Assembly: GCF_013344475.1 (NCBI RefSeq)
Contig: NZ_JABUOU010000006.1
Location: 124,001 to 188,000 of the forward strand
Source of the DNA: Martelella limonii
GTDB taxonomy: Bacteria > Pseudomonadota > Alphaproteobacteria > Rhizobiales > Rhizobiaceae
DNA length: 64,000 nt
Reading direction: 5' to 3'
Shown here: piece after piece, positions 1 to 20,992 of the stretch
Layout: every line of letters begins with the position of its first letter
How positions within the stretch are numbered: the stretch's first letter is position 1
Program-made: the position numbers and the translations under genes
Notes under the pieces: model-generated
Databases searched by the model: none
What the model was told of the DNA's origin: nothing
Seen by the model: the letters and a program-made list of their open reading frames with translations, nothing else

Positions 1-226
1 GCCCGGTCACCTTGACCATGCAGGCCCGCTCATTGGCCCTGCCATCGACCTCGACCAGGCAATCCTGGCACACGCCCATGCCGCAAAACATGCCGCGCGG
101 CGCCTCATGGGCCGTCGTGCGAAACTGCCTGATGCCCGCAGCCGTCAGCGCGGCCGCCAGGCTCTCGCCATGGCGGGCCTCGATCCTGCGGCCGTCAAAC
201 GTAATGATTTCAGTTTTCCCGGTCAT
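1..226 (-). CDS. (2Fe-2S)-binding subunit, HcnA-like, partial (3' end outside window)
   Basis: The first 75 residues are visible; the rest runs off the left edge. Cysteines at 48, 53, 56 and 69 form the C-x4-C-x2-C-x12-C pattern of a Fer2_4 plant-type [2Fe-2S] fold. This is the small subunit of three-part amino-acid dehydrogenases such as hydrogen cyanide synthase (HcnA) or D-hydroxyproline dehydrogenase. The HcnC-like FAD subunit is probably the gene at 4303-5439, and an HcnB-like subunit may lie left of the window (inference). ATG at 226 is the only start in this frame nearby. A regulator-type inverted repeat lies upstream, shared with the divergent SDR gene. Confidence 0.8.
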   Translation of the reverse strand, partial: MTGKTEIITFDGRRIEARHGESLAAALTAAGIRQFRTTAHEAPRGMFCGMGVCQDCLVEVDGRANERACMVKVTG

Positions 227-328
227 TCATCATCCGAAGAAAAGCGGCAGCCGTGTGCCGCGTGAGGAGCGTTTTCGCCGAAAACCAGGGGTCGGCATTG
301 CGCCGTTTCGGATTCTGTGTTCTCTCTG

Positions 329-342
329 CGAACTTCTGTACA
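329..342. promoter_or_regulatory. Operator-like inverted repeat, copy 1
   Basis: CGAACT-TC-TGTACA, an imperfect match to the island consensus CGAACA-N2-TGTTCG. It lies between the divergent [2Fe-2S] subunit gene and the SDR gene, and a TTTTTGCAC tail follows. Probably bound by the IclR-family protein encoded at 6892 (inference). Confidence 0.5.
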
Positions 343-399
343 TATTTTTGCACGGCGCGGGAAGCTGCGCAAGCCCCGCCAAATTCCGGAGAAGAAGAA

Positions 400-1155
400 A
401 TGTCCAATATGCTCGAGGGCAAGGTCGTTCTGGTTACCGGCGGCGCCCGCGGCCTCGGCGCGGCGATCATCCGCCGCTTTGCGGACGAGGGCGCAATCGG
501 CGTTGCCGCCGACCTCACCTTCGCAAATGACAGCGATCCCCTGCCCGAAGGCTTCACCGCGATCGAGGCCGATATCAGCGACGAGGATGAGGTGCGCGCG
601 ATGATTGCGGAGACCGTGTCGCGCCACGGCAGGATCGATTGCCTGATCGTCAATGCCGGCCTGGTGCCGCCATGGTCGGAGACGACCGGGATCGATCTTG
701 CGCAATGGGACCAGGTGATGGCGGTGAATGCGCGCGGCGCGCTTGCGACCCTGAAACATGCGGTGCCGGCGCTTACCGAAAGCCGCGGCTCGGTGGTGCT
801 GACTGGTTCCATCAATTCGCTCATCGCCCATCCGCGGCAGCTGATCTATACCGCAAGCAAGCATGCCGTTCTCGGCATATTGCGCGCTGCCGCCCTTGAT
901 CTCGGACGCTTCGGCATCCGGGTCAACGGCATCGCTCCCGGTCCGATCGCGACCGATGCGCTGCTGTCGCGCATCCGGGACCGCGCGAAATCCGGTCCGT
1001 CCGAAGCCGCGGCGCTCGAAGCGCTTGAAAGCCAGACCGCGCTCGGGCGGCTTGCCACCGTGCAGGAAGTGGCCGCCACGGTCGCCTTTCTTGCAGGCAG
1101 CGCCGCAAGCGGCATATCCGGTCAGTTGCTGCGCGTTGATGCCGGGATGGCCTGA
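400..1155 (+). CDS. SDR family NAD(P)-dependent oxidoreductase
   Basis: 251-residue classical short-chain dehydrogenase. The Rossmann motif TGGARGLG is at 13-20, VNAG at 84-87 replaces the usual NNAG, and the catalytic Ser137, Tyr150 and Lys154 (YTASK) are present. The start at 400 follows a strong purine-rich ribosome site (GGAGAAGAAGAA). Presumably oxidises or reduces a hydroxyl or keto intermediate of the pathway encoded in this island; the substrate cannot be read from sequence. It is divergent from the HcnA-like gene and followed by the ABC importer, each with its own operator-like repeat. Confidence 0.85.
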   Translation: MSNMLEGKVVLVTGGARGLGAAIIRRFADEGAIGVAADLTFANDSDPLPEGFTAIEADISDEDEVRAMIAETVSRHGRIDCLIVNAGLVPPWSETTGIDLAQWDQVMAVNARGALATLKHAVPALTESRGSVVLTGSINSLIAHPRQLIYTASKHAVLGILRAAALDLGRFGIRVNGIAPGPIATDALLSRIRDRAKSGPSEAAALEALESQTALGRLATVQEVAATVAFLAGSAASGISGQLLRVDAGMA

Positions 1156-1166
1156 ATTACTAAAAA

Positions 1167-1180
1167 CGGACAAATGTTCG
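1167..1180. promoter_or_regulatory. Operator-like inverted repeat, copy 2
   Basis: CGGACA-AA-TGTTCG (one mismatch from consensus), followed after three bases by TACGCAC, an arm also found at copy 5 with the same spacing. It sits in the 144-bp gap ahead of the solute-binding protein gene. Confidence 0.6.
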
Positions 1181-1299
1181 CATTACGCACTTTTCTTATT
1201 GACGCAACGCCAACGAATTGTCAGCTTAGCGGCGGGTTTGAGAGACGCTTCAGACCGGATAGTCAACGACCGGCACAGGTCGGAACAGGAGAACAGTTC

Positions 1300-2109
1300 A
1301 TGCTTGGTAAATTACTTTCGCTTGCATCCATTGCGCTGGTCGGGACCGCCATCTTCATTGCCCCCGCCGAGGCCCGTTCGCTCGATGAGATCATTCAGTC
1401 CGGAACAATCCGGGTCGGGGTCAACCCGAACTTCCCGCCGATGAGCTCTTACGGGGAGAAGAACGAGCTGGAAGGCTTCGACATCGATGTCGGCAACAAG
1501 ATCGCCGAGTCGCTGGGCGTCAAGGCTGAGTTCGTGCCCACCGAAACCGCACAGCGCGTGCCATTCCTGGTCGCCGACCAGATCGACATCTCGCTTGGTG
1601 CGCTGACCCGCACCGCCGAGCGCGCCAAACTGATCGATTTCACCGTGCCCCTGCACACGGAATCGATGGCAGTGCTGACGACCGACAAGATTGACGCCAC
1701 AAGCTGGAAAGACCTCGACACCGCCGACATCACGCTGGTGAACATGCGTGGCAACTGGTCGGTGGACTTCCTGAAGGAACAGCTGCCGGCGTCGAAGGTC
1801 CTGCTGGTCGAGTCCAATGCCGATACGGTGCGGGCCATCGCCCAGGGCCGCGCCGACGCGCTGGTGGAGAACATCGACTTCTTCATGGCCTTCACGAAGA
1901 ACTATCCGAACGTCAACTGGAAGACGCTGGATGACACGATCTTCACCAATTATGACAGCATCGGCGTCGCCAAGGGCAATGACGGCCTGCGCCTGTTCCT
2001 CAATGTCCTGCTTTATGATCTTCATTCCAGCGGTTATATCAACGACGAATGGGTCTCCTGGTACGGCACTCCGATGCTGAAACCGGTGGTCCCCAATCCG
2101 TTCTTCTGA
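1300..2109 (+). CDS. Polar amino acid ABC transporter, substrate-binding protein
   Basis: 269 residues with a Sec signal peptide (hydrophobic stretch about 5-22, likely cleavage after AEA at 25), followed by a family 3 (HisJ/GlnH-type) periplasmic binding domain. The IRVGVNPNFPPMS stretch and the ELEGFDIDVG stretch are typical of this family. The ATG at 1300 follows AGGAGA; longer upstream readings would cross the operator and lose the signal peptide. First gene of the importer 1300-4266. The family binds amino acids, opines or betaine-like compounds, so the island's substrate is probably a small zwitterion (inference). Confidence 0.9.
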   Translation: MLGKLLSLASIALVGTAIFIAPAEARSLDEIIQSGTIRVGVNPNFPPMSSYGEKNELEGFDIDVGNKIAESLGVKAEFVPTETAQRVPFLVADQIDISLGALTRTAERAKLIDFTVPLHTESMAVLTTDKIDATSWKDLDTADITLVNMRGNWSVDFLKEQLPASKVLLVESNADTVRAIAQGRADALVENIDFFMAFTKNYPNVNWKTLDDTIFTNYDSIGVAKGNDGLRLFLNVLLYDLHSSGYINDEWVSWYGTPMLKPVVPNPFF

Positions 2110-2187
2110 TCGTTTTGCCCGGACGCCGGATACGGCGCCGGGCTTTCTTCCGGCTGAATTTGCCCGCCCCGGGAAAGGGTGAGACAC

Positions 2188-2862
2188 TTGCATTATACAT
2201 TCCAGTTCGGCGTCGTTTTCGACGAGCTTGCCTATCTTCTTGGCGGAGCCGTGATAACGCTGGAGATTGCCTTCCTTTCATTCTGGCTCGGTTCGCTGAT
2301 CGGCCTTGGCGGGGCAACCGCCAAGCTCAGGGGCGGCAGGGTTCTGCGGGCCATCACCAATGCCTATGTGGTGTTCTTCACCAACACGCCCGCGCTCGTG
2401 CAGATCTTCTTCCTGTTCTATGCCCTGCCGGATATCGGCATCCTGCTGAACCCGTTTGGCGCCGTCGTCATCGGCATGACGATCAATACCGGTGCCTACA
2501 TGACCGATATCCTGCGCGGCGGCATCCTTTCGGTGCGCCAGGCGGAGATCGAGTCGGCGGAAGTGCTGGGCATGTCCCATCTCCAGACGCTGCGCTATGT
2601 CATCCTGCCGCATGTCGCCAAGACATTGTTTGCGCCGCTCAGCAACTTCTTCATCTGGCTGGTGCTTGGCAGTTCCATGGCGGCGATCTTCGGCGTCGAG
2701 GAACTGACCGGACGCGCCATCAACATCTCGACCCAGAACCTGCGCACCATCGAGACCTTCATCGTGGTCGCGGGGATCTACATTCTGCTGACCGTGATCG
2801 CATCGGCGGCACTGGCACTGATCGGCCGCTGGGCCTTCCGCGTCAGAGCGAGGATTTTCTGA
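2188..2862 (+). CDS. Polar amino acid ABC transporter permease 1 (HisQ/M type)
   Basis: About 224 residues, several transmembrane segments, and the cytoplasmic EAA loop (EIESAEVLGMSHLQTLRYVILP) that docks the ATPase. The start is uncertain: TTG at 2188 is placed about 8 nt after AAAGGG, whereas the in-frame GTG at 2179 lies right against the ribosome site, so TTG is preferred. The stop overlaps the next start as TGATG, pointing to translational coupling. Forms a heteromeric channel with the second permease. Confidence 0.85.
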   Translation: MHYTFQFGVVFDELAYLLGGAVITLEIAFLSFWLGSLIGLGGATAKLRGGRVLRAITNAYVVFFTNTPALVQIFFLFYALPDIGILLNPFGAVVIGMTINTGAYMTDILRGGILSVRQAEIESAEVLGMSHLQTLRYVILPHVAKTLFAPLSNFFIWLVLGSSMAAIFGVEELTGRAINISTQNLRTIETFIVVAGIYILLTVIASAALALIGRWAFRVRARIF

Positions 2863-3542
2863 TGCTCGACAGAATCATTCAGGAAGCGCCGCGCTTCTTC
2901 ACCTATTACAACATGATCTTCATCCTGAAGGCGATGGGGACGACCTTGCTGCTGACGGCGCTCGGCTGCGTGACCGGCTTCGTCTTCGGCTTCATCATCG
3001 CCGCCCTGCGCTCCACGCGGGCGAAGGTCCTGCTGCCGCTCAGGCTGCTTGTCACATTCTATGTCGAGATTTTCCGGCGCATCCCGTTTCTGGTCATCTT
3101 GTTCATCGTGATGTTCGCGATCCAGGTGATCAGCCGCAACATGTCGCTGTTCACGATCGCGGTGATCTCGATCTGCCTTCTGTCGACCGCCTTCCTGTCG
3201 GAGATTATCCGTGCCGGCGTCGAATCGGTCCCGCGCCAGCAGGTGGAGGCCGCCGAAACGCTGAATTTCGGCTTCTGGCGCACCCAGTTCCACGTGGTCC
3301 TGCCGCAATCATGGAAAGTGATCATTCCACCGGCATTCGCCTTCATGGTGATGTTCATCAAGGATACCTCGCTCGCCTCGCAGATGGGTGTGATCGAGCT
3401 GACCTTTACCGGCAAGAGCCTGATGAACCGCGGCTTTTCGCCATTCCTCGTCTATGGCGTGGTGCTTGCCGGCTATTTCGCCCTTTCCTATCCGCTGACC
3501 CGGCTTGGCGCCTATCTGGAGAAACGACTTGCCTCTTCTTGA
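2862..3542 (+). CDS. Polar amino acid ABC transporter permease 2 (HisQ/M type)
   Basis: 226 residues, about five membrane helices, with the EAA loop QQVEAAETLNFGFWRTQFHV. It shares the A of its start with the upstream stop, and its 3' end overlaps the ATPase gene by 14 bp, so the importer genes are tightly coupled. HisM/GlnP family by sequence pattern. Confidence 0.88.
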   Translation: MLDRIIQEAPRFFTYYNMIFILKAMGTTLLLTALGCVTGFVFGFIIAALRSTRAKVLLPLRLLVTFYVEIFRRIPFLVILFIVMFAIQVISRNMSLFTIAVISICLLSTAFLSEIIRAGVESVPRQQVEAAETLNFGFWRTQFHVVLPQSWKVIIPPAFAFMVMFIKDTSLASQMGVIELTFTGKSLMNRGFSPFLVYGVVLAGYFALSYPLTRLGAYLEKRLASS

Positions 3543-4266
3543 AGTCAAAAACCTGTCCGCCCATTACGGCGATCACAAGGTTCTGGAAAACATCTCGCTG
3601 TCCATCGAAAAGGGCGAGGTCGTCAGCCTGATCGGATCTTCGGGCTCAGGCAAAAGCACGCTGCTTCGGGTGTTGATGGGTCTCCTGAAGCCCTCCTCCG
3701 GCAGCGTCGTCATCGATGGCGAGGCCATCAATTACGGCTCGCGCGCGAGCCTCAAGGCCATGCGCGACCGGATGGCGATCGTCTTTCAGCAATATAATCT
3801 GTTCCAGAACATGGACGTGCTGCGCAACGTCACGATCGCGCCGGTCGAGATCAAGAAGCGGCCCAAGGCCGAGGTCGACGCCGAAGCGCGCGCCATTCTC
3901 GAACGCGTCGGCCTGTCGGCCAAGCTGAAAGCCTATCCGGACCAGCTTTCCGGCGGCCAGCAGCAGCGCGTGGCGATCGCCCGGGCGCTGACGCTGAGGC
4001 CCGAGATCCTGCTGCTCGATGAAGTGACGGCCGCCCTTGACCCCGAACTGGTCACCGAGGTTCTCGATACCGTCGGTCAGCTTGCCAATGAAGGCATCAC
4101 CATGCTGATCGTCTCGCACGAAATGAACTTCGTGCGGCAGGTGTCCTCGCGCGTGGTGATGATGGACCAGGGCCAGATCGTCGAGACAGGCGCGCCCGGG
4201 GATATCTTCGACAATCCGAAGGAAGCCCGCACCAACGCTTTCGTCTCCAAGATACTCCGGCATTGA
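3529..4266 (+). CDS. Polar amino acid ABC transporter ATP-binding protein (GlnQ/HisP type)
   Basis: 245 residues from a TTG start at 3529, chosen because GGAG lies 8 nt upstream and the protein then begins directly with the usual LLEVKNLS strand. Walker [10 protein letters not shown] at 36-44, Q-loop FQQYN near 86, signature LSGGQQQ at 140-146, Walker B LLLDE at 161-165 and switch His in VSHEMN. The Walker B is followed by VTAALD, where most relatives have PTSALD. It powers uptake through the two permeases just upstream. Confidence 0.9.
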
Positions 4267-4283
4267 GGGGGCGGCATTAAGGG

Positions 4284-4301
4284 GGCGGCTTTGACGCCGC
4301 C
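4284..4301. terminator. Hairpin between convergent genes
   Basis: GGCGGC-TTTGAC-GCCGCC stem-loop just after the ATPase stop and directly before the end of the convergent FAD dehydrogenase. There is no clear T-tract on either strand, so its role as a terminator is tentative. Confidence 0.35.
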
Positions 4302-4302
4302 T

Positions 4303-5439
4303 TCACCCTTTCGGCAGGAAGGGTGCCAGATCGATGTCGAAAGGGGCTTCGCGCCCCTGCACCATGCTTGCCACCAGCCGCGCCGCGACGGGTCCGCCGG
4401 TAAAGCCCATCCATGGAAAGAAATTGACGAAAAAGCCCGGCAGGCCGGGCAGTTCGCCAAAGATCGGCTTCCAGTCATCCGTGCCGTTCACGAATGCCGC
4501 CCAGCTCCTGACGATCCTGATATCGCCGAGCGCAGGCACCACGGAAAGCGCCACCTGCATGTTGCGCCTCAGCGATTGCGGGTTGGCAACCGGCGTGCCG
4601 TTCGGCCCGATATCGGCCTCCCAGCCGCCACCGATCAGCAGCGAGCCGACGCCGTTCTGCTTCAGCGTCAGCTTGTCCGAGGCGCAGTAGAGAAGATGCG
4701 GGATCAACGGCGCGATCCGCTCCGAAACGCTGACCTGGATCGGAAACGCCTGGACATCGGCAAGATTGGCGCCGAGCATGGCGGCAATCTTGCCAGCATC
4801 CGAACCGGCGGCGTTGACGACCCGCCGGGCGCGGAACACGCCCCTTTCGGTGGAAACCGCATAACCATCGCGCTCCCGGTCGATGCCGCGCACCTCCGTC
4901 ATCCGGTTGATCGTTGCGCCGTGGCGAATCGCCGCCCGCGCAAAGGCGGGCGCGACGGCGAAGGGGTTGGCCTTGCCCTCCTGCGGACAGAACGCCCCTC
5001 CGATCAAGCTGTCGGCGACATAGGGCGCTTCGCGGGAGAGGTCGGCGCGGTCGAGAATCCGGATCTCAAGCCCCTGGCTGCGCTCGAACACGGCCTTGCG
5101 CTCGATCGCCGCCATATCGGCCTGCGTGCGCGCAACCAGCAATCCGCCGCCGAGCTTGACCTCGAGATCAGCCCCGAGCTCCTCGCCAAGTCCGCGCCAC
5201 ATGTCGACCGACCGTGCGAGAAGACCCACCGTCGAGGCATAGGCCGCCGCCCAGGCATCGCCTTTCCTGACGAAGGGATCATGGGGTATCTGCGCATGCA
5301 GGCTGCCGGCATTCGAGCCCGATGCCACGGTATTGAGATCCGCGCGCTCCAGCAGCGTCACATCGACGCCGTCGCGCGCGAGATAAAAGGCCGTCGCCGC
5401 ACCCGCCAGACCGCCGCCGATCACGATGACATCCGTCAT
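4303..5439 (-). CDS. FAD-dependent oxidoreductase, DAO family (HcnC / D-hydroxyproline dehydrogenase beta-like)
   Basis: 378 residues. The N-terminal dinucleotide fold VIGGGLAGAATA is at about 6-17 with an acidic cap (LLER), and the C-terminal FAD-closing segment WMGFTGGP is conserved. Length and pattern match the beta subunit of membrane-linked amino or imino acid dehydrogenases and opine oxidases, which work with HcnB-like and [2Fe-2S] HcnA-like subunits. The HcnA-like gene at 1-226 makes that assembly likely. It is divergent from the old yellow enzyme gene across a 215-bp region holding operator half-sites. The substrate is not deducible; D-amino, imino or N-alkyl amino acids are candidates. 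Confidence 0.8.
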   Translation of the reverse strand: MTDVIVIGGGLAGAATAFYLARDGVDVTLLERADLNTVASGSNAGSLHAQIPHDPFVRKGDAWAAAYASTVGLLARSVDMWRGLGEELGADLEVKLGGGLLVARTQADMAAIERKAVFERSQGLEIRILDRADLSREAPYVADSLIGGAFCPQEGKANPFAVAPAFARAAIRHGATINRMTEVRGIDRERDGYAVSTERGVFRARRVVNAAGSDAGKIAAMLGANLADVQAFPIQVSVSERIAPLIPHLLYCASDKLTLKQNGVGSLLIGGGWEADIGPNGTPVANPQSLRRNMQVALSVVPALGDIRIVRSWAAFVNGTDDWKPIFGELPGLPGFFVNFFPWMGFTGGPVAARLVASMVQGREAPFDIDLAPFLPKG

Positions 5440-5573
5440 ATATTCACCCTTCAGAGCAGATCCGCATCTTACCGAAATGCCGGAGGCGCTCTATCTGACC
5501 TGTTCTATCGCGATTTCGCGGATGGTATCACCAGGCCGCGATAAGCGTTGCTTTGCTGCCGCTTGGCTTTATT

Positions 5574-5598
5574 TGTTCGCTATGATAACTTTTGTTCG
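5574..5598. promoter_or_regulatory. Operator-like half-sites, copy 3
   Basis: Two direct TGTTCG half-sites, 5574-5579 and 5593-5598, 19 bp apart. The second is followed by CATTTCGCAG, resembling the tails of copies 2 and 5. They lie in the divergent region between the FAD dehydrogenase and the old yellow enzyme gene. No full 6-2-6 repeat is formed here. Confidence 0.45.
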
Positions 5599-5654
5599 CA
5601 TTTCGCAGATATAAAATCAATCCGCATGACCCATTTAGCAAGCAGGAAATTCGC

Positions 5655-6782
5655 GTGACCTCTCCCATGCTCTTTACCCCCTTCACCCTCGGCAATGTCA
5701 CCTTCCCCAATCGTGTCGTGGTGTCGCCCATGTGCCAGTATGAGGCGGTCGACGGGTATGTACAGGATTGGCACCGTGCCCATCACGCGCGCTTTGCGCT
5801 TGGCGGCGTCGGCGGCGCGGTCGTCGAGGCGACGGGCGTGACGGCCGAGGGCCGCATTACGCCGTCCTGCCTCGGCATCTGGGACGACAGCCAGATCGAT
5901 GGCCTTGCCACGATCACCGCTCTCTACCGCAAATACGGCATCCCGACCGGCATCCAGCTTGGACATTCCGGGCGCAAGGGAAGCTCTGCCTCCCCCTGGG
6001 ATGGCGCGGGGCCGCTTGACCCTTCTTCGCCCGAAGCCTGGCAGACAGTGGCCCCTGGCGCCGTCCCCCATTCCGAAGGCTGGCCGGCGCCGCATGCGTT
6101 GGAAGCCGATGAAATCGGCGAAATCGTGGACGCCTTTGCCGCCGCCGCCAAGCGCGCGGTCGCGGCCGGCTTCGACTTCGTCGAAATCCACGGCGCCCAT
6201 GGCTATCTCATCCACACGTTCATCTCGCCGCTCTCCAACACCCGGACGGACAGCTACGGCGGCAGTTTTGAAAACCGCATCAGGCTGGCGCTGGAGGTGA
6301 CCGAAGCGGTCCGCGCCGCAATTCCCGCCGATATGCCGCTGTTCTACCGTGCTTCTGCTGTCGACCACGCGGAGGGCGGCCTGGACATTGGCGACACGGT
6401 GCGCCTTGCCAAGGCGCTGAAGGAGAAGCGCGTCGACCTCATCGACTGCTCGGCGGGCGGCATCAACGGCCCGGTCGCGCGCACCCGCATCCCGCAGACG
6501 CCCGGCCACCAGATCCCCTATGCCGACGAGATCCGCCGTGACGCAGACATCGCCACCATGGCCGTGGGCCTGATCACGGACGCCGCACAGGCAGAAGCCG
6601 TGATTGCCGAAGGAAAGGCCGATCTCGTGGCGCTCGGGCGCGAACTCCTGTCGGATCCGGCGTTCGGCTATCATGCGGCGGTGCAACTCGGCCTTGCCGA
6701 TCCGGAATCCGTTCTGCCGAAAAACTACGGCTTCTACCTGTCACGCCGTCGCGAGGCGCTCGCACGCCATGGTAAATCCTGA
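5655..6782 (+). CDS. NADH:flavin oxidoreductase, old yellow enzyme (YqjM/NamA class)
   Basis: 375 residues from GTG at 5655, which follows AGGAA; the in-frame ATG at 5592 lies inside the operator region and is rejected. TIM-barrel FMN enzyme: the thermophilic-like OYE cysteine is at 27 (PMCQY), the substrate-binding HGAHGYL is present, and so is the signature SPLSN-R-D-YGGSFENR. Members reduce activated C=C bonds, and some relatives demethylate or open N-methylated rings. Inference: reduces an unsaturated intermediate of this island. An operator-like site separates it from the downstream iclR gene. Confidence 0.87.
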   Translation: MTSPMLFTPFTLGNVTFPNRVVVSPMCQYEAVDGYVQDWHRAHHARFALGGVGGAVVEATGVTAEGRITPSCLGIWDDSQIDGLATITALYRKYGIPTGIQLGHSGRKGSSASPWDGAGPLDPSSPEAWQTVAPGAVPHSEGWPAPHALEADEIGEIVDAFAAAAKRAVAAGFDFVEIHGAHGYLIHTFISPLSNTRTDSYGGSFENRIRLALEVTEAVRAAIPADMPLFYRASAVDHAEGGLDIGDTVRLAKALKEKRVDLIDCSAGGINGPVARTRIPQTPGHQIPYADEIRRDADIATMAVGLITDAAQAEAVIAEGKADLVALGRELLSDPAFGYHAAVQLGLADPESVLPKNYGFYLSRRREALARHGKS

Positions 6783-6801
6783 CAAGGGAAACAAAACCAC
6801 G

Positions 6802-6815
6802 TGCACAAACGTTCG
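6802..6815. promoter_or_regulatory. Operator-like inverted repeat, copy 4
   Basis: TGCACA-AA-CGTTCG, three mismatches to CGAACA-N2-TGTTCG. It lies 77 bp ahead of the iclR start, which would suit autoregulation. Confidence 0.45.
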
Positions 6816-6891
6816 AAATCAGGGGGTGTTGCTTGCAACATCTTCCAATCAACAATAAGCCGGTACGTTCATGTACCGCACGGGGGAAACG

Positions 6892-7704
6892 ATGACCACA
6901 ACAGCAAAGACCAAGAAGCTGGCCGATATCGGTTCTCCCGAGGATGACAACGCCCGCGATTACGTGACCTCGTTCGCGCGCGGGCTCGACGTGATCCGCA
7001 CGTTCACCCGCTCGAAGCCGTCGATGACGATGAGCGAAGTGGCGGAGCAGGCGGACATGAACCGCGCCGCCGCGCGCCGCTTCCTGCTGACGCTGGTGCG
7101 CGAGGGCTATGCCCAGTTCGACGGCAAGTATTTCAGCCTCAATCCGAAGATCCTGGAACTCGGCTTTTCGGCGCTCGCCTCGATGAACCTGCCCGAAGTC
7201 GTGCAGCCCGTGCTGAACGACCTTGCGGAGAAGCTTCAGGAAAGCTGCTTCTGCGTGGTGCTGAGCGGTGATTCCTGCGTCTATATCGCCGCCGCCAAAT
7301 CGCGTCGCGTGATCAACGCCTCGATCGAGCTTGGCGGCCGTGCGCCCGCCTATTGCATGTCATCAGGCCGGGTCCTGCTCGGCGCGCTGAACGACCGGGC
7401 CCTCGACGCAGCCCTTGAAAACGTGAAGCTTGTACCCGTTACCGAGAAGACGGTCACCTCCAAACTGGAGCTTCGCAGCGCCATCCGCGATGCCAGGACA
7501 CGCGGCTATTCGGTGGTCGACCAGGAGTATGAAATCGGCCTGCGTTCGATCTCTGTCCCGGTTGCCGATCGTTCGGGCGCGGTGATCGCGGCACTCAATG
7601 TGTGCTGCCCGAGCCCGCGCTACACGATCGAGGAAATGATGCAGAAGGTGCTGCCCGTGCTTCTCGACAGCGCAAGCCGCATCACCCAGGCGCTCCCGCA
7701 CTGA
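6892..7704 (+). CDS. IclR-family transcriptional regulator
   Basis: 270 residues. The N-terminal winged helix-turn-helix covers about 20-85 (SFARGLDVIRTFT, then MTMSEVAEQADMNRAAARRFLLTL), and the IclR effector domain follows to the C-terminus. The SSGRVLLGAL stretch and the repeated basic/aromatic pattern resemble PcaR/PobR-type aromatic or hydroxy-acid regulators. ATG at 6892 follows GGGGGAA; an ATG at 6871 is an alternative. It sits in the middle of the catabolic island, and related inverted repeats stand before nearly all island transcription units, so it is the obvious regulator. Activator or repressor cannot be told. Confidence 0.9.
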   Translation: MTTTAKTKKLADIGSPEDDNARDYVTSFARGLDVIRTFTRSKPSMTMSEVAEQADMNRAAARRFLLTLVREGYAQFDGKYFSLNPKILELGFSALASMNLPEVVQPVLNDLAEKLQESCFCVVLSGDSCVYIAAAKSRRVINASIELGGRAPAYCMSSGRVLLGALNDRALDAALENVKLVPVTEKTVTSKLELRSAIRDARTRGYSVVDQEYEIGLRSISVPVADRSGAVIAALNVCCPSPRYTIEEMMQKVLPVLLDSASRITQALPH

Positions 7705-7786
7705 TACCGTGGCGCGCACGCGTGAAAGCCGGTCCTTTTAGGGCAAGGTCTGCAAGATCGCTTATTGGCCACTGCGGCGCCTGAGG

Positions 7787-7812
7787 CCTCTCTCCCGCGA
7801 ACGGGAGAGAGG
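7787..7812. terminator. 11-bp perfect hairpin between iclR and the convergent dapA-like gene
   Basis: CCTCTCTCCCG pairs with CGGGAGAGAGG over a CGAA loop; on the minus strand the loop reads TTCG, an extra-stable tetraloop type. It starts 17 nt beyond the stop of the minus-strand gene. No T-run follows, so it may be a terminator or a small dispersed repeat. Confidence 0.45.
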
Positions 7813-7828
7813 AGAAGGATGTTCGCTA

Positions 7829-8767
7829 TCAGGCCGCAGCCTCGATCTCATCCACCAGCCTGTCGAGCTCATCGATGATACCAGAAATCACTTCGAGGCG
7901 CTGACGGCCCTCCTCGCCCAGAGAGGAAAAGGTCGTGAGCGGCGCGCGCACATCGCCGACGGGATAGCCCGCGCGGGCGGCGAGCGCTTTCGAGTAGCAC
8001 TGATGTCCATAGGTGGGATGACCCTCGGCGATCGTGTGCTCGATCTTCGTGATATGCGCCTGGATCTTCTTCGCATCGTCGATCCGGCCCGCTTCCAGCA
8101 GTCGCCACAGCGCCTGGATGGCGCGCGGGATATAATTGCCGAAGGGATCGACATAGCCGACGGCACCCAGCAGGAAGGATTCGACGATCCGCTCGCCGGC
8201 AAACACATTCATGACGCCATCGGTTTCCCGAATCACGTCAAACACGCGGCCGACATCGGTCGAGGCTTCCTTGATGTAACGGATCTGTCCGAATGCCGCC
8301 GTCAGCCTTGCGACCAGCGTTGCCGGCATATCGACATTGGAGGTGAAGGGATTGTTGTAGAGCATGATCGGCAGGCTGGTGGCCGCACAGATCGCCTTGT
8401 AATATTCGAAAATCTCGTCATGCGTGGGCGTGTAATAATAGGGCGGCAGGATCATGAGCCCGTCTGCGCCAAGCTCCTCCGCCATGGCCGCATATTCGGC
8501 CGCCTTTTTCGTATAGGCATTCATTGCGCCGACCAGCACATGCATGCGGCCGTCGACGTGGCGCACGGTCGCCTCGATATAGGCACGGCGCTCCTCATCG
8601 CTCAGCGTCAGGAACTCGCCGGTCGTTCCGAGGATGATGACGCCGGGAACGCCGCATTCGACCTGCCAGTCCAGAAACCGCCTGAGGGCCTCGAAATCGA
8701 TCTTCTCACCGTCTTCGGTGAACGGGGTAACGGTGACCGTGTAGCTGCCACGGAATTCTGCTGCCAT
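7829..8767 (-). CDS. Dihydrodipicolinate synthase (DapA/NAL) family lyase
   Basis: 312 residues, a typical DapA-fold class I aldolase. GTTGE at 47-51, the proton-relay Tyr137 (LYNNP) and the Schiff-base Lys166 (RYIKEAS) are all present. The family includes lysine biosynthesis DapA, sialate lyase, keto-deoxy-sugar-acid aldolases and pyrroline-4-hydroxy-2-carboxylate deaminase (hydroxyproline breakdown). Location in an IclR-controlled catabolic island with an HcnC-like dehydrogenase favours a catabolic aldolase or deaminase over lysine biosynthesis (inference). The ribosome site AGGAGA lies about 9 nt upstream, and the operator-like copy 5 lies 78 bp upstream. Confidence 0.85.
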   Translation of the reverse strand: MAAEFRGSYTVTVTPFTEDGEKIDFEALRRFLDWQVECGVPGVIILGTTGEFLTLSDEERRAYIEATVRHVDGRMHVLVGAMNAYTKKAAEYAAMAEELGADGLMILPPYYYTPTHDEIFEYYKAICAATSLPIMLYNNPFTSNVDMPATLVARLTAAFGQIRYIKEASTDVGRVFDVIRETDGVMNVFAGERIVESFLLGAVGYVDPFGNYIPRAIQALWRLLEAGRIDDAKKIQAHITKIEHTIAEGHPTYGHQCYSKALAARAGYPVGDVRAPLTTFSSLGEEGRQRLEVISGIIDELDRLVDEIEAAA

Positions 8768-8844
8768 CTGGCATGTCTCCTGATCTTACCAAACGTCGCA
8801 GCCGGAACGGACCGGAGCGACGCAGCGCGATAATGCGCGTCCAA

Positions 8845-8858
8845 CGCACATTTGTTCA
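8845..8858. promoter_or_regulatory. Operator-like inverted repeat, copy 5
   Basis: CGCACA-TT-TGTTCA with a TACGCAC arm three bases later, the same layout as copy 2. It lies upstream of the minus-strand dapA-like gene. Confidence 0.55.
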
Positions 8859-8906
8859 TAATACGCACGATGTCAACCGCGCCTTGGGTCGAATTCCGGA
8901 GCGATT

Positions 8907-9677
8907 TCAGCGGATATAGCTTGCGCCGTTGAAATCGATTGTCCCACCGGTCATGTGCCGGCAAGCCCCGGTTGAAAGAAAGCCGATCAGGTTTCCGATC
9001 TCCTCCGGCGGCACCCATTCGCCCATGGCAAGGCCTGCCGTCAGCTTCTCGACCCCGCCGAGCACGGCTGCGGCATCTTCAGACATGCGCGTCTTCACCA
9101 CGCCCGGCGCGATGATGTAGGCAAGAATGTTCCGGTCAGCATAATTGCGCGCAATTGTCTGCGTTGCCGCCTTGATCGCGCCCTTGGATGCGGCGTAGGC
9201 GATCGTCTTCGGGCTGGACGATCCGCGCTGCGCATTCCAGCTGACCACCGAAATGATGGTCCCTCCGCCGTTTTCCTTGTAATGACGCACCGCCGCCCGC
9301 ATCAGATCGGCGGGAGCGCGGACATTGACGGCAAGGGTCTTTTCCCAGACATCGTCCCACTCCGCCTCCTCCTCCTCGATGCCCCCGGCATTGATGAAGA
9401 CGGCGGCATTGTTGACGAGAACATCGACCCGCCCCTTCCAGGCAACCGCTTCGTCCCAAAGACGGCGGACATCGGAAAGCCTTCCGAGATCAGCCCCGAT
9501 CAGTTGCACCCGCGCCGGATCGAACCCGGCAACAGCGTCTTCGGCGCCGGCGCGGTCGCTGCCGTAATGGGCGATCAGATTGGCGCCCATGCCCAGCAGA
9601 ACACGGGCGGTGGCCGCGCCTATCCCCTTCGATGCGCCGGTGAGGAGGACGGTTTTACCTTCGAGCGAAAATGTCAT
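8907..9677 (-). CDS. SDR family NAD(P)-dependent oxidoreductase
   Basis: 256 residues. TGASKGIG at 13-20, NNAA at 89-92, and catalytic Ser146, Tyr161, Lys165 (YAASK). The second SDR of the island, clearly a different branch from the one at 400. It is divergent from the lambda-crystallin-type dehydrogenase; the 98-bp gap holds the only perfect copy of the operator repeat, plus a TGTTCG half-site right at this gene's start. Substrate unknown; FabG-like by fold. Confidence 0.85.
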   Translation of the reverse strand: MTFSLEGKTVLLTGASKGIGAATARVLLGMGANLIAHYGSDRAGAEDAVAGFDPARVQLIGADLGRLSDVRRLWDEAVAWKGRVDVLVNNAAVFINAGGIEEEEAEWDDVWEKTLAVNVRAPADLMRAAVRHYKENGGGTIISVVSWNAQRGSSSPKTIAYAASKGAIKAATQTIARNYADRNILAYIIAPGVVKTRMSEDAAAVLGGVEKLTAGLAMGEWVPPEEIGNLIGFLSTGACRHMTGGTIDFNGASYIR

Positions 9678-9713
9678 TGTTCGAATCCCGGAATTTTGTT
9701 TATGTTTACTAGA

Positions 9714-9727
9714 CGAACATTTGTTCG
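9714..9727. promoter_or_regulatory. Operator-like inverted repeat, copy 6 (perfect)
   Basis: CGAACA-TT-TGTTCG, a perfect 6-2-6 inverted repeat between the divergent SDR and hydroxyacid dehydrogenase genes. A further TGTTCG half-site is at 9678-9683. This is the best copy and defines the consensus. Confidence 0.7.
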
Positions 9728-9775
9728 AATATCAACGGGTTTTTATACCACTCCCATACCGCAAGGCTACCGATC

Positions 9776-10714
9776 ATGACAGTTTCCACCCCCATAGCCA
9801 TTGTCGGCTCCGGATCGATCGGCGCGGCCTGGGCAATCGTGTTTGCCCGCGCAGGCTTTGCCGTCAATCTCCATGATCCAGCCGAAGGCCAGCTCGACAA
9901 GGCCCGCGCAGCCATCACCGACCGGCTCGCAGAGCTCGCCAATCATGCATTGCTGGATGAACCACCAGCCGCGCTTGCGGCACGGATCACCTATCACAGC
10001 CAGCTCGAAAGCGCCGTCGGCGATGCAGCCATGGTGATGGAGGCCGCGCCGGAGGTTCTGGAGATCAAACGCGACCTGTTCGCCCGGCTGATCGCGCTGA
10101 CGGGTTGCGAAACCGTGCTTGCCTCCTCCTCCTCGGCCATCACCGCCAGCCGGTTTGCAGGGGCGCTCGAAGGGCGCGAGCGCTGCCTCGTCGCCCATCC
10201 CGGCAATCCGCCCTATCTTCTGCCGGTGGTGGAACTCGTTCCAGCGCCTTTCACGGCACCCGCGATCTTTGAAACGGCGACCAGGCTGCTTTCCGAGGCC
10301 GGCATGTCGGTGGTTCAGGTCAACAAGGAGGTGGAGGGTTTCGTCTTCAACCGCCTTCAGGGCGCCGTGCTGCGCGAAGCCTATTGCCTGGTGCGCGATG
10401 GCGTGGTCGGGGTCGACGACCTCGACAAGATCATGCGTGACGGGCTCGGCCTGCGCTACGCCTTTATCGGCCCGTTCGAAACCAGCGATCTCAACGTGCG
10501 CGGCGGCATCGCCGCCCACGCCGCGCGCATGGGCGAAGCCTACCGGCGCATGGGTGCCGAGCGCGGGCAGGACGATCCCTGGACCGACGATCTCGTCGCC
10601 GATGTCGATCGTCAGCGCCGCGCCGTCCTGCCGCTGGAGCAATGGGAAGACCGCGTTGCATGGCGGGACCGCGCCTTGATGGCGATGAACCGGTTGAAGC
10701 GCGATCTCGCATGA
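9776..10714 (+). CDS. 3-hydroxyacyl-CoA dehydrogenase-like / lambda-crystallin (L-gulonate 3-dehydrogenase) type
   Basis: 312 residues. NAD-binding GSGSIG at 11-16, an SSSSA stretch near 117-121, and the catalytic dyad region HPGNPPY at 141-147 with Glu153. The GLGLRYAFIGPFE stretch is typical of CRYL1-like L-gulonate dehydrogenases and carnitine dehydrogenase relatives, rather than of fatty-acid FadB. Most relatives read HPVNPP. It lacks the thioesterase domain often fused to carnitine dehydrogenase. Likely oxidises a free 3-hydroxy acid. Its stop overlaps the next start (ATGA). Confidence 0.82.
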   Translation: MTVSTPIAIVGSGSIGAAWAIVFARAGFAVNLHDPAEGQLDKARAAITDRLAELANHALLDEPPAALAARITYHSQLESAVGDAAMVMEAAPEVLEIKRDLFARLIALTGCETVLASSSSAITASRFAGALEGRERCLVAHPGNPPYLLPVVELVPAPFTAPAIFETATRLLSEAGMSVVQVNKEVEGFVFNRLQGAVLREAYCLVRDGVVGVDDLDKIMRDGLGLRYAFIGPFETSDLNVRGGIAAHAARMGEAYRRMGAERGQDDPWTDDLVADVDRQRRAVLPLEQWEDRVAWRDRALMAMNRLKRDLA

Positions 10715-11802
10715 TCGGACTGATCGTCAATCCCCTGGCCGGCATGGGTGCACGGCTTGCCGCGCGCGGCAGCGACCGTTTCGCCGATATCGAAGCGGCA
10801 AGAGCGCAAGGCGCGATCGCAACGGCCGGGGACATGGCGATCCGCGCGCTGAGACGCCTGCCGGCCTGTCGCATCCTGACCGGCGCGGGCGGCATGGGGC
10901 TGGAGGCGGCGCGCGATCTCGGCTTTCAGGCGGAGGCGCTGATGGCGGCCGGTCCGCTCTCCACCGCCGCCGACACGCGCCGGCTTGCGGCGCTGATGGT
11001 CGACCGCGGCATTTCGCTGATCCTGTTTGCGGGCGGCGACGGCACCGCGCGCGACATCTTCGCCGTGACCGGCGACAGGGTTCCCCTCATCGGCATTCCG
11101 GCAGGCGTCAAGATGCATTCCGCCGTCTTTGCGCTGACTCCTGAAAAGGCGGGCGATATAGCAAGCCGCGTACGTACCGGAAGCTTTGCCCGCCGCCCCG
11201 CCGAGATCATGGATGCAGACGAGGCGGCCCTTGCCGCAGGGCGCCCGTCGGCCCGCCTGTTCGGCTACGCCGCCACCCCCGACATGCCTCACCTGTTGCA
11301 GGCCGCAAAAGCCGTGCGGACCGATGGCGGCAATGCCGCGATGATGGCGCTCGGGCGAAGGATCGCCCATGCCGCGCCATCCGGCGACCTGATCCTGCTT
11401 GGTCCCGGCACCACCATGCAGGCTCTCAAGCAGGGTTTCGGGATAGAGGGGTCGCTGATGGGCGTCGATGCGGTGCGCGGCGGAGAGCTACGCGCGACCG
11501 ATGCCACCGCCAGCGCGCTCGAAGCACTCTGCGCCGCTGCGCGATCCATCAGCCTCTATGTCGGCGTCATCGGCAATCAGGGCTTCGTTTTGGGCCGCGG
11601 CAACCGCCAGATTTCACCGGCCGTGATCCGCGCCGCCGGCCGCGACAACATCCACATCGTGGCAACGCGCGAGAAGCTTGCGGCCCTTTCGCGCCTTTAC
11701 GCCGATACCGGCGATCTCGGTCTCGATACCGAACTTGCCGGTTTTCACCGGGTTCTGACCGGCCCGAATGACAGCATGGTCATGCGTCTGGGGGAGGACT
11801 GA
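10711..11802 (+). CDS. ATP-NAD kinase / AcoX family protein
   Basis: 363 residues beginning MIGLIVNPLAG, the family's usual start. GGDGTARD at 108-115 is the NAD-kinase/diacylglycerol-kinase nucleotide motif, and GIPAGVKMHS at 128-137 is the AcoX-type second motif. AcoX proteins occur in acetoin and other catabolic operons; their reaction is not settled. Coupled to the dehydrogenase upstream by a 4-bp overlap. It may phosphorylate NAD(H) or a pathway intermediate (inference). Confidence 0.82.
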   Translation: MIGLIVNPLAGMGARLAARGSDRFADIEAARAQGAIATAGDMAIRALRRLPACRILTGAGGMGLEAARDLGFQAEALMAAGPLSTAADTRRLAALMVDRGISLILFAGGDGTARDIFAVTGDRVPLIGIPAGVKMHSAVFALTPEKAGDIASRVRTGSFARRPAEIMDADEAALAAGRPSARLFGYAATPDMPHLLQAAKAVRTDGGNAAMMALGRRIAHAAPSGDLILLGPGTTMQALKQGFGIEGSLMGVDAVRGGELRATDATASALEALCAAARSISLYVGVIGNQGFVLGRGNRQISPAVIRAAGRDNIHIVATREKLAALSRLYADTGDLGLDTELAGFHRVLTGPNDSMVMRLGED

Positions 11803-11822
11803 CGCCCGCGCCTTGTTAATTT

Positions 11823-11836
11823 CGAACATTTGTGCG
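11823..11836. promoter_or_regulatory. Operator-like inverted repeat, copy 7
   Basis: CGAACA-TT-TGTGCG, one mismatch to consensus, in the 68-bp gap ahead of the gcvPA-like gene. It suggests that the gcvP pair has its own regulated promoter besides any read-through. Confidence 0.6.
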
Positions 11837-11870
11837 AATTTCAATCGACAGTCGATCTTGAGGAATTTTC

Positions 11871-13253
11871 ATGCCCACCCATTCCCATCCCTGGATGGCC
11901 AACAGCGTTTCGGCGATCAAGGCCGAGATGCTCAAAGAAACCGGGGCGCCTTCCATTGCTTCCCTGTTCAGCCAGATCCCGGCCGACCATTATCGCAAGA
12001 CCCCGCTTTCGCTTCCGGCACAGTTCCGCTCGGAGGCCACGCTGAAGCGCCATCTGCGCGAAATGGCAGCTGGCAACCGGGATTGCGAGGCCAACATTTC
12101 CTTTCTCGGCGGCGGCATCTGGCAGCATCACGTGCCTGCGGTCTGCGACGAGCTGGTGCGCCGCCAGGAATGGCTGACCTCGGTGTTCGGTTCGCCAGAA
12201 TCCGATCACGGCCGCAACCAGGCATGGTTCGAGTTCTGCAGCCTGCTCGGCGAACTGATCGAGATGGATCTGGTAGGCATGCCGGTCTACAGCTGGGGCT
12301 GCGCTGCCGGCCACGCGATCCGCATGGCTGCAAGGCTGACGGGCCGCTCCGCCGTTGTGCTCGCCGGGCCGATGTCGCCCGAGCGGCTTTCGGTGATCGA
12401 AACCTATTGCCGGTCGGCCACGCCCGGCCGCGCGATCGCGATCCGCCTTTGCCAAGCAGACGGCGCAACCGGCCGCATTGATCCGGGCAAGCTTGCCGCC
12501 ATGGTGGATGGCGAGACGGCAGCGGTCTATTTCGAAAACCCCAACTATCTCGGACAGTTCGAGGTGGCGGCAGAGGAAATCGCGGCGATCGCGCGCAAGG
12601 CCGGGGCACTCACGATCGCCGGCATCGACCCGCTTTCGCTCGGCATCGCCGCATCGCCCGCAGCGCTTGGTGCGGATCTGGTGGTCGGATCGCTGCAGCC
12701 GCTCGGCGTCCATATGCATGGCGGCGGCGGCGTCGGCGGCTTCATCGCCTCGCCCCACGAGGAACGCTTTGCCCGCGAATACCCGACCTTTCTCGTCAGC
12801 GCCGCACCGACGGCCGTTGCCGGCGAAACCGGCTTCGGCCTCAGCCTGTTCCACCAGACCTCCTATGGCATGCGCGACGAGGGCAAGGACTGGACGGGCA
12901 ATTCCACCTATCTCTGGACCATCGCCGCCGCCGCCTACATGGCTCTGCTTGGCCCGGAGGGCTTCGTCGAACTCGGCCGCGCCATCATTGCCGGTGCCCA
13001 CGCCGCCGCAGCAAGGATCGGTACCGTGGCCGGCGTCGAAATCGTCTATCCCGGAGGCTTCTTCAAGGAATTCGTGGTCGATTTCACCGGCACCGGCAAG
13101 GCCGTGGCGAATATCAATCAGTCCCTCCTGGAGGAGCGCATATTCGGCGGCATCGATCTCGGCGATGGCAAGGCGCTTTACTGCGTCACCGAAATCCATG
13201 CCGACGCCGATATCGACCGTCTGGTCGCAGCACTGGAAAGGGCCGTCAGATGA
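11871..13253 (+). CDS. Divergent glycine dehydrogenase (decarboxylating) subunit 1-like (GcvPA family)
   Basis: 460 residues, the usual GcvPA length and fold type I. FLGGGIWQHHVPAV at 78-91 corresponds to the canonical FLGAG-YDH-IPA segment. The following region, normally YQPEISQGTLQAIFEFQ, here reads SPESDHGRNQAWFEF (108-122), so residues that face the active site differ. It is coupled to the GcvPB-like gene by ATGA. No gcvH or gcvT lies nearby in the window. Inference: a paralogue recruited to decarboxylate or cleave another amino acid, or to make glycine-derived C1 units in this catabolic route. A normal glycine cleavage system presumably sits elsewhere. Confidence 0.78.
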   Translation: MPTHSHPWMANSVSAIKAEMLKETGAPSIASLFSQIPADHYRKTPLSLPAQFRSEATLKRHLREMAAGNRDCEANISFLGGGIWQHHVPAVCDELVRRQEWLTSVFGSPESDHGRNQAWFEFCSLLGELIEMDLVGMPVYSWGCAAGHAIRMAARLTGRSAVVLAGPMSPERLSVIETYCRSATPGRAIAIRLCQADGATGRIDPGKLAAMVDGETAAVYFENPNYLGQFEVAAEEIAAIARKAGALTIAGIDPLSLGIAASPAALGADLVVGSLQPLGVHMHGGGGVGGFIASPHEERFAREYPTFLVSAAPTAVAGETGFGLSLFHQTSYGMRDEGKDWTGNSTYLWTIAAAAYMALLGPEGFVELGRAIIAGAHAAAARIGTVAGVEIVYPGGFFKEFVVDFTGTGKAVANINQSLLEERIFGGIDLGDGKALYCVTEIHADADIDRLVAALERAVR

Positions 13254-20918: not shown

Positions 20919-20992
20919 TGGCTGGGGAACCTGGATTCGAACCAGGACTAACGGAGTCAGAGTCCGTGGGTCTACCGTTAACCTATTCCCCA
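20919..20992 (-). tRNA. tRNA-Gln (anticodon CTG)
   Basis: 74 nt including an encoded CCA. Acceptor stem TGGGGAA/TTCCCCA, anticodon arm ACGGA-CTCTGAC-TCCGT giving anticodon CTG, and T-loop TTCGAAT in a CCTGG/CCAGG stem. The U1-A72 start of the acceptor is typical of bacterial tRNA-Gln. Confidence 0.95.

Follow-up and report, generated by a model that had tools for sequence, protein, structure and literature searches.

A predicted three-box IclR-type operator recurs across a catabolic island of Martelella limonii

Results

Genes and predicted operators of the island

The stretch analysed here, referred to as the window, comprises 64,000 nucleotides of Martelella limonii (G000:C37:124001-188000, G000 being the organism's own genome) and carries part of a catabolic gene island whose intergenic gaps hold a recurring inverted repeat. 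We consider it likely that these repeats are three-box operators of the IclR type, predicted from their sequence and placement, and that they mark one regulon for an island of amine or imino-acid type catabolism.

A sequence-only reading of the window had described a 6-2-6 repeat, CGAACA-N2-TGTTCG, ahead of nearly every promoter. Pattern matching against CGAACANNTGTTCG recovered all of its cores, with three mismatches at 329, 6802 and 5585-5598, two at 8845, one each at 1167 and 11823, and none at 9714, the copy that had been called perfect. All seven sites lie in non-coding gaps of the gene models. The description ‘nearly every promoter’ holds for seven of the ten window gaps of at least 30 bp; the other three are site-free, one lying inside the ABC operon (2110-2187) and two between convergent genes (4267-4302 and 7705-7828). 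The half-sites reported at 5574-5598 are also present. They make up box 0 (5574-5579), box 1, in degenerate form, and box 2 of a single longer site that reaches 5609. The sites and genes are as follows.

318-342, predicted operator in the gap between an HcnBA-like gene and SDR1: outer box TGTTCT (318-323), core CGAACT-TC-TGTACA (329-342); counterparts in G669 and G599
400-1155, plus strand, SDR1, short-chain dehydrogenase
1167-1191, predicted operator before the amino-acid ABC operon: core CGGACA-AA-TGTTCG (1167-1180), outer box CGCACT (1186-1191); counterparts in G669 and G599
1300-4266, plus strand, amino-acid type ABC transporter
1300-2109, plus strand, its substrate-binding protein
2188-2862 and 2862-3542, plus strand, its permeases
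3532-4266, plus strand, its ATPase
4303-5439, minus strand, DAO-family FAD oxidoreductase, sarcosine/glycine oxidase-like, below curated cut-offs
5574-5609, predicted operator in the divergent gap between the DAO-family and old yellow enzyme genes: outer box TGTTCG (5574-5579), degenerate box ATAACT (5585-5590), box TGTTCG (5593-5598), outer box CGCAGA (5604-5609); counterparts in G669, G599 and L023
5655-6782, plus strand, old yellow enzyme, NADPH dehydrogenase-like
6802-6815, predicted two-box operator before iclR1: TGCACA-AA-CGTTCG, no third box; counterparts in G669, G599, L022 and L023
6892-7704, plus strand, IclR1, PcaR/PcaU/PobR-type regulator (TIGR02431, 296.0 bits, cut-off 284.75)
7829-8767, minus strand, DapA1, DHDPS-family enzyme
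8834-8869, predicted operator before DapA1: core CGCACA-TT-TGTTCA (8845-8858), outer boxes TGCGCG (8834-8839) and CGCACG (8864-8869); counterparts in G669, G599 and L022
8907-9677, minus strand, SDR2, short-chain dehydrogenase
9703-9727, predicted operator in the divergent gap between SDR2 and the next gene: outer box TGTTTA (9703-9708), perfect core (9714-9727); counterparts in G669, G599, L022 and G311
9776-10714, plus strand, 3-hydroxyacyl-CoA dehydrogenase family protein, with lambda-crystallin as the nearest solved structures
10711-11802, plus strand, ATP-NAD kinase-fold protein
11823-11836, predicted operator before GcvPA-GcvPB: core CGAACA-TT-TGTGCG, third box weak (3/6); counterparts in G669, G599, L022 and G311
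11871-14764, plus strand, glycine dehydrogenase subunit pair (GcvPA 11871-13253, GcvPB 13250-14764)

An alternative ATG start for iclR1 lies at 6871, 21 bp further up, and the HcnBA-like gene flanks SDR1 across the gap that holds site 329. The island continues into the 14 kb before the window (L021). The enzymes encoded there are a lysA-like pyridoxal phosphate (PLP) decarboxylase, a class III aminotransferase, an aldehyde dehydrogenase and another DapA-like enzyme; the same stretch also carries a second ABC transporter, a further IclR gene and genes for two sarcosine oxidase subunit-like proteins. Names for the aldehyde dehydrogenase and for the components of this transporter come from reading translations, and its binding protein had no NCBIfam match at 1e-20. 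A matrix built on the seven window sites found two further sites at window positions -5097 and -4946 (L021 8903 and 9054), both in the gap from which the second transporter and the aldehyde dehydrogenase genes diverge, giving nine predicted operators for about 25 island genes. This pair is spaced 151 bp apart in G000, 150 bp in G669 (L061) and 153 bp in G599 (L063), and it may provide one site per promoter or form a loop.

From the gap and its site, we infer promoters in the same-strand gaps 1156-1299, 6783-6891, 8768-8906 and 11803-11870. A sigma-70 promoter scan of positions 1-12000 found two against 2.8 expected, a chance level from which neither promoter positions nor the sense of regulation can be read.

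A third box five base pairs outside the core

The palindrome was recovered by an enumeration made without the earlier motif. Across all 4096 six-mers at the 13 spacings from 0 to 12, CGAACA-N2 ranked top, occurring at up to three mismatches in eight of the 12 island gaps. Several runners-up, at seven of the 12 gaps, are the same site shifted or one letter off, and the leader at spacing 5 is the same half-site in the reversed arrangement (TGTTCG-N5, six of 12 gaps).

The flanks of the core were then compared over 54 sites from 13 genomes or contigs, chosen by eye from matrix matches above 11 bits. The matrix scan gave 68 matches, two of which are window sites 329 and 1167 found again in L021; 49 matches were used and the five other window sites added, and 19 were dropped by eye because they lay outside mapped gaps, at a contig edge or off the mapped island (L023:44, L064:12245, L065:4939, L066:7251/10691/14828/16510, L055:6317, L056:392/9290, L059:3533, L060:5948, L068:13989, L070:4330, L072:386, L073:4028/11242, L026:1779 and L027:2376). 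Some of those dropped may be real. In 38 of the 54 sites a further half-site (at least four of six letters matching) lies exactly 5 bp beyond the edge of the 6-2-6 core, against only zero to seven sites at each of 23 other spacings (1-4 and 6-24 bp). When the flanks were shuffled 2000 times, 4.9 sites on average and 14 at most had such an outer box, and it is absent from all 22 core-like words found elsewhere in the window. The outer boxes were not part of the matrix, so that this test is independent of it. The excess at N5 therefore identifies the predicted operator as a three-box element of alternating half-sites, and the dyad that had been taken for the whole operator is only its core.

In full, the operator comprises three, sometimes four, copies of the half-site TGTTCG in alternating direction: box 1 (CGnACA), 2 bp, box 2 (TGTTCG), and a third box 5 bp outside either of them. 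Outer boxes occur on both sides in seven of the 54 sites, including 5585 and 8845. Boxes 1 and 2 correspond to the group-2 pair of published IclR sites, and the outer box with its neighbour to the group-1 pair; the sites thus show both an inner inverted pair with a 1-2 bp spacer and a third half-site that forms a group-1 pair. That an IclR-family protein binds here is well supported by analogy, because the motif combines the published group-2 arrangement with a group-1 third box and because both regulators of the island exceed the PcaR/PcaU/PobR cut-off.

The motif might instead belong to an unrelated regulator, such as LexA, or be a non-regulatory repeat. The alphaproteobacterial LexA box is GTTC-N7-GTTC, and its half-site GTTC is common to both motifs. 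Searched as a direct repeat, GTTCN7GTTC has a single match in the window, which lies outside the island (20078), and is found at none of the sites. Of the about 25 island genes, 21 were scanned and four read by eye, and this revealed no other regulator; the N2 and N5 spacings are those of published IclR sites (PMC8222616). We regard an origin of this kind as highly improbable and retain the IclR-type operator as the working interpretation.

Specificity of the motif in the genome

At up to three mismatches, the window holds 60 matches to the 12-bp motif against 28.8 expected from shuffles, so that the cores at 329, 6802 and 5585 are individually non-significant; orthologous sites lend them credibility. 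At zero or one mismatch the window holds just three matches, each of them in the island.

The sequence-only reading had expected a genome-wide scan to return mainly this island. As written, the expectation fails, with 502 matches at two mismatches against 309 for the control; the 12-bp pattern alone does not point to the island. It holds only for a stricter exact form, CGNACAWWTGTNCG, which has three exact matches in 4.54 Mb, all three in the island, and none for the reversed control. At one mismatch the strict form gives 24 matches, five of them in the island, against 15 for the control. One of the 19 outside the island is the site of another IclR gene, on C38 (L104), considered below. The other 18 all overlap some open reading frame (ORF), as do the island sites by the same test, which gives no separation.

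Across 13 genomes, the strict pattern without mismatch occurs three times in G000 (three in the island), three times in G669 (three), four times in G599 (three), three times in G045 (one), once in G050 (one) and not at all in G311, and seven genomes of the same genus in which no IclR1 was found have zero or one match each. On these counts the presence of a strict match is not diagnostic of the island. As a marker, the group-1 pattern alone was rejected: it gave 25 matches in the window against 18.9 expected, and 146/167 in the genome at one mismatch against 166/163 for controls, so that the outer pair alone has no specificity.

Conservation in related islands

Related islands with IclR1 at 78-83% identity were found in G669, G599, G311, L022 and L023. 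In four of these (L022, L023, L061/L062 of G669 and L063/L064 of G599), all 24 matrix matches above 11 bits lie outside mapped genes, which leave only 10.6% of the island spans uncovered. The spans were set by the analyst, with L064:12245 and L023:44 falling outside them, and two query proteins of the gene mapping (the u4 ABC ATPase and NanE) were in the wrong frame. G669 and G599 each carry nine sites in matching gaps. The old yellow enzyme gene was not found in the G669 island, where two sites share the gap between the DAO-family gene and iclR1. The island is patchy in its distribution: IclR1 matches at E <= 1e-70 occur in eight of 394 family genomes, the own genome included, and in none of the seven other genomes of the genus searched.

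Within the five close islands, the third box is unevenly placed. It is found at none of 11 sites before iclR1 and in the gap between the second ABC transporter and the aldehyde dehydrogenase (-iclR2), against 21 of 22 sites elsewhere, and an A at the third position of the half-site occurs in three of 22 half-sites in these variant sites against 27 of 44 elsewhere. The comparison was made post hoc, on orthologous sites that are non-independent. Two observations limit the pattern: in G045 and G050 three of four sites in the aldehyde dehydrogenase gap do carry an outer box, and the corresponding gap of G599 has no iclR2 beside it. We treat the assignment of two-box sites to autoregulation and three-box sites to catabolic promoters as a lead.

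Two paralogous regulators

The island had been thought to contain one IclR-type gene; a second regulator, IclR2, 54% identical to IclR1, is encoded about 3 kb before the window. IclR1 carries HTH_IclR and IclR_C domains, the IclR2 reading frame is open over its full length, and IclR2, like IclR1, exceeds the TIGR02431 (PcaR/PcaU/PobR) cut-off, with 307.1 bits. The recognition helices, RAAARRFLLTL in IclR1 and RATVRRFLLTL in IclR2, align with RAAVRRCLHTL at the same position of the solved Pca-regulon regulator 8eju. In the tree, the two proteins fall in separate, well supported clades, that of IclR1 with six rows (support 100/100) and that of IclR2 with G669_2, G045 and G050 (four rows, 100/99). 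Two PcaU-type paralogues near one island also occur in G391, G404 and G473 (L067-L073). These pairs form other clades, and regulator doubling may thus have occurred more than once.

Natural variation bears on which protein reads the operators. In G599 only 60 bp separate the end of the aldehyde dehydrogenase match from that of the neighbouring gene (HcnC); such a short interval means that IclR2 is missing at that place. The only regulator match in this genome, which is 77% complete, is IclR1, and the nine sites are kept. Conversely, the only match in G045 and G050 at E <= 1e-60 is a regulator of the IclR2 clade, and the same motif is present. Since sites persist without IclR2 at that place in G599, and since the IclR2 clade accompanies the same motif in G045 and G050, the simplest reading of these sequences is that either paralogue can read the operators and that specificity is probably shared.

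Two other assignments keep the core claim of one IclR-type regulon and differ only in the roles of the paralogues. IclR1 alone might read the operators, with IclR2 acting on other targets or being a relic. The position of iclR1 among the sites, its own conserved site and the G599 island all fit this view, which sits poorly with G045 and G050, where the IclR2-clade protein is the sole match and the motif stands at related genes, and with the uninterrupted reading frame of IclR2, the recognition-helix pattern that it shares with IclR1 and its counterpart in G669; we judge it distinctly unlikely. Alternatively, labour might be divided, with IclR1 acting at the three-box window sites and IclR2 at the two variants of the CGTACA/TGTGCG type that precede the second ABC and aldehyde dehydrogenase operons. 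The rarity of A and the lack of a third box in the sites near iclR2 and before iclR1 speak for such a division. Yet G599 keeps both variant sites without IclR2 at that place, and G045 and G050, with the IclR2 clade, use A-type and three-box sites, so that this arrangement too, built on the post hoc comparison above, appears unlikely. Shared specificity of the two paralogues remains our preferred reading.

Discussion

The proposal that a single motif marks one regulon is well supported by the matrix scan, the palindrome enumeration, the spacing of the third box and the placement of sites in the gaps of related islands. Several points weigh against it. The sites at 329, 5585 and 6802 are weak taken singly, 16 of the 54 sites have no clear third box, and the distant islands of G391, G404 and G473 kept only one site each. 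An unrelated palindrome, AGCCGG at spacing 11, reaches six gaps just as the N5 pair does, so that the pair proves nothing alone and the third box rests on the outer-box spacing test. The strict form also occurs off the island (on other contigs for two of three matches in G045 and one of four in G599), and the G311 island has no strict match. The matrix was trained on the sites of the earlier reading, and the conservation scans are not fully independent of it, as the palindrome enumeration is. With G599 77% complete, it is possible that IclR2 lies elsewhere in that genome. Finally, the evidence for sites, architecture, placement, conservation and the second regulator is sequence throughout, and from it we infer binding by the IclR proteins, its sharing by the two paralogues, control by a ligand and autoregulation.

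Other IclR proteins of the genome could also bind such sites. TIGR02431 has 14 match rows in the own genome (two genes being split in two rows), of which three exceed the cut-off: IclR1, IclR2 and one on C40. A single-mismatch copy of the 12-bp motif (C40:94865) lies inside an ORF, 0.9 kb from this third regulator. Moreover, a clear three-box site, CGAACATTTGCTCG-ataag-CGAACA, lies between another IclR gene (C38:48984-49700) and an ORF that diverges from it. This IclR-family gene (L104:1486-2360, G000:C38:48969-49843) is 31% identical to IclR1, and the divergent ORF reads as creatininase-like in translation. Gene and site probably form a separate small regulon. Given this look-alike site, the motif is probably a code common to several such regulators, with possible cross-talk between them. 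A weak core followed by CGAACA at N5 also stands on two Pseudomonas contigs that carry a distant IclR (L026:1779 and L027:2376), and these contigs may have similar operators.

As a mechanism, IclR1 and IclR2, with their near-identical recognition helices, would probably recognise one common set of operators, as dimers or tetramers; a pathway metabolite, once bound, would change the state of the regulator and so switch the catabolic promoters together, and the two-box site before iclR1 would serve autoregulation. A further idea, which we hold to be doubtful, is that the two architectures are used on purpose, the three-box form serving catabolic promoters and the two-box form serving the promoters of the regulator itself and of the second ABC/aldehyde dehydrogenase-iclR2 genes. 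The paralogues reading them would be able to exchange subunits and would employ both proposed modes of IclR dimerisation. If so, the third box would set activation against autorepression.

The gene set suggests an amine, imino acid or D-amino acid as the substrate of the island, because it combines an amino-acid transporter, amine-type FAD oxidases, an aminotransferase, a PLP decarboxylase, DapA-like enzymes and GcvPA/GcvPB. Solved-structure searches of island proteins gave no identification of the substrate, the last two having no match at all, and literature searches yielded none; the available part of PMC9602339 describes diaminopimelate (DAP) use through LysA and contains no cluster like this island. 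Two side observations concern the same region. The GcvPA/GcvPB pair has no GcvT or GcvH among the island genes examined, adjoins the NAD-kinase-fold protein and is apparently co-regulated with amine catabolism. A tRNA-Gln gene lies at 20919-20992 of the window, on the minus strand.

The sites thus provide a conserved operator set for an unnamed catabolic island, including naturally occurring two- and three-box variants and at least one island from which a paralogue has apparently been lost in nature. Its named promoters could be used in a search for the island substrate, and the set offers a test of a question posed in PMC8222616, whether there are two ways for IclR regulators to dimerise on a three-box site.

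A narrow, non-exhaustive search, which did not cover the supplementary tables of PMC8222616, found no published description of this regulon. The class of operator is already known, and the island most likely holds an ordinary regulon of that kind. PMC8222616 (Suvorova and Gelfand 2021) defines two IclR motif types, GKTYCRYW3-4RYGRAMC (group 1) and TGRAACAN1-2TGTTYCA (group 2), and predicts three-box sites of alternating direction, with one pair per type, for 32 IclR orthologous groups. It gives the PcaU site as TTTGTTCGATWATCGMACAMA, with half-site TGTTCG and group-1 pair TGTTCG-N5-CGMACA, reports an additional external half-site for PcaU, PobR and HmgR, and notes, citing Popp et al. 2002, that PcaU requires the third box for binding.

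The island sites share the half-site TGTTCG and the spacing of 5 with those of PcaU, and the island regulators belong to the same curated subfamily as PcaU and PobR (TIGR02431). No protocatechuate/beta-ketoadipate pathway genes were found among the island genes scanned, so that this placement denotes a sequence subfamily only and not a pathway role. Unlike the PcaU, PobR and HmgR systems of Acinetobacter and Pseudomonas, which are also of the IclR family, the island consists of amine/amino-acid type enzymes and transporters, has the inner N2 dyad as the constant part of its sites and encodes two paralogous regulators. As in the 32 three-box groups, one pair of a three-box site fits GKTYCRYW3-4RYGRAMC and the other fits TGRAACAN1-2TGTTYCA loosely, the island half-site being TGTTCG; unlike those groups, this regulon would place two-box and three-box sites side by side.

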